Below, in pieces: positions 1-13,673 of a stretch of DNA of 44,142 nt. A model generated the notes under the pieces. That model was not told the DNA's origin. It saw only the letters and a list, made by a program, of their open reading frames with translations, and ran no database searches. Each line of letters starts with the position of its first letter. The first letter of the stretch is position 1. This DNA comes from Thermovibrio sp. (GTDB lineage Bacteria; Aquificota; Aquificia; Desulfurobacteriales; Desulfurobacteriaceae). The stretch spans positions 1 to 44,142 of the forward strand of contig WFNZ01000031.1 of NCBI GenBank assembly GCA_015488335.1, read 5' to 3'. Position numbers and translations under genes: made by a program.

Positions 1-119
1 GGCTCAATGAACCTGCGGAACACCTCAATTACAAGCCCTATCGGGCTTCTTACCACTTGCCCCGCAGGGCGCGTGTCCCTTATTCTCCTGTCAAAGACCG
101 CTTTTGACGGCGATGTTTG

Positions 120-8946: not shown

Positions 8947-10158
8947 TCAGCTTTTCCTCTCGTCGTATTCAATTTTTACATCTGGTTCCGGAGCAGGAAG
9001 AGTTTCGGCGGGTTTGCTGATTTCAAACTTTCCACTCTTTATCCACTCTTTCAGGATCTCAGCGATTTCACGGGCTTTATAGTAAGAAGAGACCGGAGAG
9101 GTTAGGACTTTTTTGCCGTTTATCTCAATGTAGCCCCGGCGGAGCTCCCCGTAGCTCACGTACTTAATCGGCTTTGCGTTTCCAGAAGGGTAGTCAACAG
9201 AGTAGTCTATTACAGGGGCAAATATCTCGTCGTCTCTAACAGAGGTGTAGTAGGCAATTCTCTCGTTGAGTATCGGTATTGGAATTCCAATTCCGACGAA
9301 CATTGAGACGCCGTAGCCCAATATTGATGCAGCCTTTATAAAGTCCGTTGACATCTGTTTCATATCGCCAACAACCATCAGGGTTCCAGCTCCCTCCATG
9401 GGCTGACCTTTCTTGCTCCTCTTCACTCCAAAGGGAGAGTGCTGGGTTCCGTGGAAAGCGACATAGCCTATTCCACCGCCAAGGAAGATTCTCGTTCCTA
9501 TTCCAATGGTCTCAAAGAACGGGTCGTTCATAAGTGGAGAGAGCTGGCCGGCTCCGGAGTAGGTCGCGTTTCCAAAGTTTGGCTTCAGCGTTCCCATGTA
9601 GGTGTAGATAGTCCTTGAGGACTTGTTGACGGCAACGTTGTAGTTCTGGTAGGCGTTCCTCGGGCTGCAGAGGATTGCGTCGTTTATCGTCTTTATGTTT
9701 ATGAGCTTCTTTATCTCTCTCCTTGGGTAACAGTCCGTTCCGTAAGCGTAGGCTTCAAGCTCTATGTCCTCTCCGGCTATGAGCTCCTCTATAACGTGGG
9801 CTCCGCCGTACTCAAACTTTCCCGGGTAGACCTCGTTCCGGGGGTCGTTTTCGGGAAGGGCTGTTGCTCCTATGTAGAGGTCAACGGCTGCAATTCCTCC
9901 GTAGGCTGGAACGCCGTTGAGGTAGATCTCCTCCATCTTCATTCTGGGCTTTGTGTGGCCAACGTTTAGAAATGCTCCTGAGGAGCACATTGCACCGAAG
10001 GTTCCGGTTGTAACTACGTCAACCTCTTCTGCCGCTTTAACAACTCCTAACTCCTCAACTATCTCTATCATCTCCTCGGCAGTAACGACAACCGCCTCGC
10101 CTCTCCTTATCTTCTCGTTTATCTCCTCGTAGGTCTTAACAACCTTGAACTGCTCCAT
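8947..10158 (-). CDS. DUF39 homocysteine-biosynthesis sulfurtransferase
   Basis: A 403-residue DUF39 protein. In methanogens the characterised homologue (MA1821) works with a ferredoxin-type partner to convert aspartate semialdehyde to homocysteine, bypassing O-acylhomoserine. Two conserved cysteines that fit the catalytic pair are visible: FGAMCSSG (C58) and YGTDCYPRR (C143). Glycine-rich segments such as FLGGGIGYVAFHGTQHSP are also typical. The protein ends soon after the DUF39 domain, with no CBS domains of the kind seen in longer homologues, and no NIL/ferredoxin partner is encoded in the window. The start ATG has AAGAGG upstream. Confidence 0.88.
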   Translation of the reverse strand: MEQFKVVKTYEEINEKIRRGEAVVVTAEEMIEIVEELGVVKAAEEVDVVTTGTFGAMCSSGAFLNVGHTKPRMKMEEIYLNGVPAYGGIAAVDLYIGATALPENDPRNEVYPGKFEYGGAHVIEELIAGEDIELEAYAYGTDCYPRREIKKLINIKTINDAILCSPRNAYQNYNVAVNKSSRTIYTYMGTLKPNFGNATYSGAGQLSPLMNDPFFETIGIGTRIFLGGGIGYVAFHGTQHSPFGVKRSKKGQPMEGAGTLMVVGDMKQMSTDFIKAASILGYGVSMFVGIGIPIPILNERIAYYTSVRDDEIFAPVIDYSVDYPSGNAKPIKYVSYGELRRGYIEINGKKVLTSPVSSYYKAREIAEILKEWIKSGKFEISKPAETLPAPEPDVKIEYDERKS

Positions 10159-11865: not shown

Positions 11866-12903
11866 TCAGTAAACCTTTATTCCGGTTCCCTCCTTAATCT
11901 TACCAACAACCTGAACCCAGGGCTCTCCTTTTTCGCTGAGCCTTGAGAGGAGCTCCGGTAATTTCTCCTCAGGAACGGCAATTAAAAGTCCACCGGAAGT
12001 TTGCGGGTCAAAGAAGAGCATCTTCAAATCTTCATCAAAACCTTCTGGAAACTCCACCGCATCCCCAACGTAGTCAACGTTGTCGTATGTAGCAGCAGGC
12101 AGAAGCCCCATAGAGGCGTACTCTTTAGCTCCGGGAAGGAGCTTAAAGGCAGAGGAATCTATTTCTGCTGAAACTCCGCTGAACTTGACCATCTCGTAGA
12201 GGTGCCCTAAAAAGCCAAACCCTGTAACGTCTGTGCAGGCACTTACTCCAACTGAAACCATAGCCTCAGAGGCAGATTTATTAAGGTGGGTCATAACCTC
12301 AGAAACAGCCTTTACCTCCTCATCTGATGCCATATCTGCCTTTATAGCAGTTGTCAAAACGCCGATTCCCAAAGGCTTTGTGTAGACAAGAACGTCTCCC
12401 GGCTTAGCCGTTGAGTTCCTGACAATCCTTTTAGGGTGAGCGATGCCTGTAACAGAAAGGCCAAATTTTGTTTCAAGGTCGTCAACTGTGTGGCCTCCAA
12501 CAAGGGAAACTCCGGCCTCTTTTAACTTTTCAGCTCCTCCCTTTAAAATCTCTGCCAGGTAGTCCATGGGAACCTTGCAGGTGTCAAACATAACAAGGTT
12601 TATTGCCGTTATGGGCTTTCCTCCCATTGCGTAGACGTCTGAGAGGGCGTTTGCAACGGCAACCTGGCCGTAAACGAAGGGATCGTCAACAACGGGAGTA
12701 ATAAAGTCCGCAGTTTGAATCAGAGCTATCTCGTCTGTAAGTCTGTAGACTCCGGCATCTTCGGCCGTTTCAATTCCAACCAATACGTTTTCATCTACAG
12801 GAAAAGAGACCTTACTCAAAACCTCTGAGAGCCCGACCGGGCTGAGCTTTGCTCCTCAGCCGGAAGCCCTAACGGTTTGGGTCAGTTTAAACTTCCTACT
12901 CAA
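11866..12903 (-). CDS. selD: Selenide, water dikinase; a selenoprotein (Sec at residue 16)
   Basis: SelD makes selenophosphate for selenocysteine and selenouridine. The obvious open frame (to 12819, 317 residues) lacks the N-terminal catalytic loop. Reading through the in-frame TGA at 12856-12858 gives [17 protein letters not shown], exactly where SelD proteins have their Cys or Sec followed by a conserved Lys, and a normal total of 345 residues. A SECIS-like hairpin follows the TGA. The best start is TTG at 12901-12903, 8 bases after GGAGGG and overlapping the queC stop. Other family motifs are visible: GGHTVDD and [10 protein letters not shown]. SelD sits between queC and rimO in one operon. 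Confidence 0.9.
12824..12858 (-). promoter_or_regulatory. SECIS element in selD
   Basis: On the minus strand the UGA (12856-12858) is followed after 17 bases by a GGUC apical loop (12835-12838) closed by an AGCCC/GGGCU stem (12830-12834 with 12839-12843). In E. coli fdhF the loop GGUCU follows UGA at nearly the same distance. An alternative lower pairing, GGCTGAG with CTCAGCC, includes the UGA itself. This supports SelB-dependent selenocysteine insertion. Confidence 0.8.
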
Positions 12904-13603
12904 CTATCTTTCCCTCCTCTTTCAGCCTCTTTATGAGGTGGTCTTCCTCTCCTGCCTCTGCCCATCCTTTAGCCCTTAAGATACAGCTGTCGCACCTCAT
13001 ACAGGGGATTTCCTCCCCTCTGTAGCAGGAGATTGAGTAGGAGTAGTCTGCACCTAAAGAGAGACCAAGCTTTATGATTTCGCCCTTTGTGAGGTTTATA
13101 AGGGGAGCATGAATCTTCCACTGTTTCCCCTCTGCTCCAAGTTTTGTTCCTCTGTTTAAAGCCTCCTCCATAGCTGAGAGGAACTCTGGGCGGCAGTCTG
13201 GGTATCCACTGTAGTCAACGGCGTTCCAGCCTCCTACAAGGTGTGTAGTCCCTCTGCTTTCAGCGTAAGCCGCAGCAATGGAGATAAAGACCCCGTTTCT
13301 AAAGGGAACGTAGGTTATGGGAATCCCTCTCTCCTTTACCTCCTCAACGGAATGGGTTTCAGGAACTTCTAAGTTCCTGTCTGTAAGTGCAGAAGCTCCA
13401 AACTTTGATAAATCAACTTCAAAGAGAATGTGCTCCTTTACTCCGGCATTCTTCGCCGTTATCTTTGCCATTTCTATCTCTATTGAATGCCTCTGGCCGT
13501 AGTAGAAGGTGATGGCGTAAACTTCGTCAAACTGCTTCTTTGCCCAGTAGAGGGCCGTTGTTGAGTCAAGACCTCCCGAGAATATGACCACTGCCGATTT
13601 CAT
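12896..13603 (-). CDS. queC: 7-cyano-7-deazaguanine synthase
   Basis: QueC converts 7-carboxy-7-deazaguanine to preQ0 in queuosine synthesis, an ATP-driven step. The PP-loop SGGLDSTT near the N-terminus binds ATP. C-terminal cysteines in [16 protein letters not shown] form the zinc site. The chosen ATG (13603, 235 residues, starting [11 protein letters not shown]) has GGGAG five bases upstream; a TTG four codons earlier (13615) would put that site inside the gene and is less likely. Its end overlaps the selD start. It is divergent from the HEPN/MNT pair across about 70 bases. Confidence 0.95.
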
Positions 13604-13673
13604 ACTTTCTCCCAAAAGAGTTTTAAGGCTAAGGATATAATAATACCCGTAAACCGGATTTAAGGAGGGTCTT

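Follow-up and report, generated by a model that had tools for sequence, protein, structure and literature searches.

SelD is the second most widespread selenoprotein family of prokaryotes (PMC13188914; also PMC1794560). Its selenocysteine (Sec)-containing forms are known from Clostridia, Deltaproteobacteria and Campylobacterota, where the same UxxK motif is accompanied by an in-frame UGA and, downstream of it, a hairpin with a G in its loop (PMC1794560, PMC13188914, PMC4607533). The change from Sec to Cys in SelD has also been described, and so has a case, Helicobacter mustelae, in which SelD is the only selenoprotein (PMC1794560, PMC4607533). The selenide, water dikinase of Aquifex aeolicus was predicted in 2005 to be a product of UGA read-through (PMC1242214). 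As to the Desulfurobacteriaceae, one paper counts the Sec tRNA of T. ammonificans (PMC5441870), and beyond this tRNA count we found no description of selenoproteins of the family in the open-access literature, which is weak evidence of absence.

The window analysed here, a stretch of 44,142 nucleotides from Thermovibrio sp., is contig 31 in a draft genome of 1.65 Mb (a Desulfurobacteriaceae MAG). As judged from its sequence, the selD gene in this window almost certainly encodes a Sec-containing selenide, water dikinase (selenophosphate synthetase), the UGA being decoded with the aid of SelB and a hairpin. Such an arrangement is well supported here but familiar: it has been kept throughout the Desulfurobacteriaceae, and its occurrence in many other bacteria is known, the latter point having been made by the original prediction. 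The only differences between the Sec-containing SelD proteins of these other bacteria and the one described here lie in their sequences and in where the hairpin is placed and how it is shaped. A. aeolicus SelD (solved structures 2yye/2zod) belongs to the same family and has Sec or Cys at the same loop position, although about half of its residues differ from those of the SelD studied here. The 2yye chain has Cys where the L041 locus, which matches 2yye over the stretch seen, has TGA. The SECIS loops differ as well, being of the GGUCC-GGN-GGACC type in the A. aeolicus group and a GGUC tetraloop here. Among named relatives the closest is a 'Thermovibrio sp.' MAG, whose SelD is 99% identical, and Desulfurobacteriaceae MAGs come next.

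The plain selD frame extends over 11866-12819(-), starts with TTG at 12819 and encodes 317 amino acids. When the TGA at 12858-12856 was translated as Sec, the frame was extended up to the TTG at 12903-12901 by exactly 28 codons, the number of N-terminal SelD residues that the original prediction had found to be missing. The regained stretch contained the catalytic loop ASG-U-GAKLSP, and the anticipated ribosome-binding motif GGAGGG was located 8 nt ahead of the TTG. In this glycine-rich N-terminal loop Sec is followed by the Lys of the UxxK motif, and the position of Sec aligns with Cys in solved SelD chains. The extended protein scored 383.3 bits against TIGR00476 (cut-off 125) and covered profile positions 1-310 of 311, which is a full-length match above the curated cut-off of this SelD equivalog. 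The features are compiled in Table 1. Elsewhere in the window, the product of 8947-10158(-) (403 aa) looks by eye like a member of the DUF39/homocysteine-biosynthesis family, which is known chiefly from methanogens.

Table 1. Features of the selD locus in the window and further selenoprotein-related genes of the same genome.
Feature	Position	Strand	Description	Basis
selD, full frame with TGA read as Sec	11866..12903	-	345 residues, Sec16	translation, TIGR00476
In-frame TGA, predicted Sec codon	12856..12858	-	motif ASG-U-GAKLSP	TGA in 21/21 complete selD genes of the family
selD start codon TTG	12901..12903	-	8 bp overlap with the end of queC	
Shine-Dalgarno stretch GAGGAGGG	12912..12919	-	also in several other family genomes	read from sequence
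queC (7-cyano-7-deazaguanine synthase)	12896..13615	-	upstream of selD, overlaps its start	TIGR00364, 209.5 bits (cut-off 150.3)
SECIS apical hairpin AGCCC-GGUC-GGGCU	12830..12843	-		synonymous-codon constraint, compensatory double changes
Sec-peroxiredoxin, PrxU-like	contig 24, 21516-22127 (L149:1300-1914)		FTYV-U-PTE, Sec53	
Group-3-like [NiFe] hydrogenase large subunit	contig 23, 40322-41623 (L144:796-2100)		AYDP-U-IACAVH, Sec414	
FdhA homologue with Cys	contig 59, 4530-6542 (L123)		NCARICHAPS, no in-frame stop	

The original prediction depended on the presence of selA, selB and tRNA-Sec in the genome, and all three were found. The selA and selB products scored 619 and 444 bits, respectively, and tRNA-Sec scored 81.7 bits (cut-off 47) and was assigned the anticodon UCA by ARAGORN. 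The genome thus holds selA, selB and selC, the set expected of a bacterium with a selenoprotein gene. In addition, a tRNA 2-selenouridine synthase (mnmH) was detected with 326 bits.

To follow the UGA across relatives, we compared this genome with those of 21 relatives, which makes 22 members of the family. Complete selD genes were available from 21 of them; G002, which carries only a fragment at a contig edge, was left out of the count. Every full-length gene was interrupted by a single in-frame TGA, which always fell on the same codon and in an invariant context, and a short form of selD, which would have spoken against the prediction, was absent from all 21. The start codons of these genes, mostly TTG and in some cases ATG, lie 14-18 codons ahead of Sec and in most of the genes are preceded by a GGAG-like purine-rich stretch. 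The selD genes of the next family (f4) mostly have one TGA as well. The in-frame stop was absent from selD of G050, which reads RVSGCAAK, and G054, both from one f4 genus, and SelB did not reach the cut-off in either genome, while it was found in the Sec-SelD genomes tested alongside (G033, G048 and G010). N-termini were readable at 102 homologous loci from many phyla, a set in which some genomes are entered twice, and here the codon was TGA in 75 cases and TGT or TGC in 27. The UGA of selD therefore stands in frame where homologues have Cys.

The SECIS of E. coli fdhF presents a GGUC apical loop about 18-19 nt past the UGA, and the central GU of this loop contacts SelB. The selD hairpin has the same loop at UGA+18..21 (12838-12835), with the stem at UGA+13..17 and +22..26 (12843-12839 and 12834-12830). 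The gap between UGA and loop is 17 nt, as foreseen, and the spacing comes within about one base of that of fdhF. The GU at the centre of the selD loop may contact SelB as well, by analogy with E. coli. The two elements differ in their host genes, that of E. coli encoding formate dehydrogenase; moreover, no bulged U was seen here and the conserved part is the apical stem-loop.

Taken by itself, the fold of this one sequence was unremarkable (shuffle z -0.94). When the region was recoded synonymously with local codon usage, a stem of the same length arose in 15% of cases under loose rules, and an exact nGUn tetraloop in 6.7%. Single-sequence folding and random recoding were dropped as arguments for the hairpin, which they did not distinguish from chance, and comparative evidence was used instead. 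An Rfam search of the region returned only chance matches and no SECIS family up to E = 10, and we do not assign the hairpin to an Rfam family.

Codon entropy was compared across 91 columns, each of which encodes one and the same amino acid in all 21 genomes and has a degeneracy of four or more. The lowest entropy, 0.28 bit, was common to exactly five columns, those for Ser, Pro, Val and Gly of the stem-loop and for the Gly before the UGA. At the same time, six different codons occurred in the Leu column adjoining the stem-loop. In 100,000 random draws matched for amino acid, the observed entropy sum was never reached. All 126 stem cells (six pairs in 21 genomes) were paired, which was equalled in 1 of 500 shuffles. 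Four of the six pairs were invariant, and covariation consisted of two double changes, each in a single genome: a stem C-G was replaced by U-A in L026, and the loop-closing G-C by A-U in L020, where the central GU was kept. These data go far beyond chance and, at the level of sequence, are decisive for an RNA-level constraint on a hairpin downstream of the UGA with G in its apical loop. The Gly codon immediately ahead of the UGA (window 12859-12861(-)) was GGC in 20 of the 21 genomes, a constraint equal to that of the SECIS stem, which suggests a preferred 5' context for read-through.

The reading of the UGA as Sec was weighed against three other explanations. If the UGA were a real stop, SelD would be the 317-aa form initiated at TTG 12819 and the stretch upstream would be untranslated. 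The plain ORF is indeed open, and a hairpin of this kind is not unusual in a single sequence. However, the 317-aa form would lack both the catalytic Sec/Cys and the Lys of the N-terminal loop. Moreover, the frame is open in every full-length family genome with the TGA as the only interruption, and the residues encoded ahead of the plain-ORF start do not vary in 21 genomes although their codons do, which implies that this region is translated. A true stop codon is, in our judgement, very improbable.

Even less credit can be given to the TGA having arisen from a Cys codon by a sequencing or assembly error. The window being a contig of a draft MAG speaks for an error, but the same TGA is present in 21 separate family genomes and in most selD-bearing relatives of the class. 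This conservation refutes the error, which would also leave the SECIS constraint unexplained. Just as slight is the chance that UGA specifies another amino acid (e.g., Trp or Gly) throughout the genome without a SECIS. Nothing favours this explanation, which is named for completeness: ordinary genes terminate at UGA, selD itself among them, a dedicated tRNA-Sec and SelB are encoded in the genome, and homologues have Cys at the Sec position.

Decoding of UGA as Sec, which the original prediction had expected of this organism, is further supported by two redox genes that contain a UGA. The TGA-containing peroxiredoxin occurred in 14 family genomes, and in all 14 its hairpin had a GGUC loop at +18, the same loop and spacing as in selD. 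One stem pair of this hairpin covaries (G-U, G-C, U-A, C-G), and the hairpin is absent from Cys paralogues, one of which, 82% identical to the Sec-peroxiredoxin, is encoded on contig 42. In the hydrogenase the TGA takes the place of the first Cys in the C-terminal motif. Of the family genomes searched, 12 have this TGA, and the hairpin that follows it has an AGUU(C) loop. The best profile for this protein was the sulfhydrogenase 2 alpha subunit, well under the cut-off, and the protein could possibly be a Sec form of the sulfhydrogenase 2 group. Little literature was found on Sec sulfhydrogenase and PrxU. The in-frame stop of FdhA was missing from nearly all relatives examined, and Sec-FdhA was found only in G007 (CARL-U-HAPT, GGUCU loop). 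The Cys-containing FdhA had raised the suspicion that SelD is the sole selenoprotein, which the TGA-containing peroxiredoxin and hydrogenase ruled out. Thus, at least three proteins encoded by this genome very probably contain Sec, a minimum count obtained from targeted families.

The sequences themselves show the frame, the decoding machinery, the conserved UGA, the constraint on the hairpin RNA and the other UGA-containing genes, and from these we infer the insertion of Sec in the living cell, the binding of SelB and the catalysis. Translation of SelD would begin at TTG 12903, and SelB carrying Sec-tRNA-Sec would decode the UGA at 12858-12856 while binding the GGUC hairpin. Sec16 and the conserved Lys three residues on would form part of a flexible N-terminal loop that handles selenide, and the predicted activity of SelD is to make selenophosphate with the use of ATP. 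The selenophosphate would feed SelA, providing Sec for SelD itself, the peroxiredoxin and the hydrogenase, as well as the tRNA selenouridine synthase. It is conceivable, though improbable, that Sec codon 16 serves as a putative built-in selenium switch for SelD. If so, ribosomes would stop after 15 codons when Sec-tRNA is scarce and SelD would fall, whereas in the presence of selenium SelD would rise, making a self-sustaining on/off loop for the whole selenium economy.

These results fix where selD, a core gene for selenium use, starts across the Desulfurobacteriaceae. They also offer a contrast between a family-wide Sec-SelD and the UGA-less SelD, without SelB, of one related genus. Moreover, they indicate that at least three genes of this lineage have a UGA decoded as Sec, despite the Cys in its FdhA homologue. 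The combination of Sec-SelD with Cys-FdhA fits the published idea that SelD can help to keep the Sec trait without Sec-FdhA.
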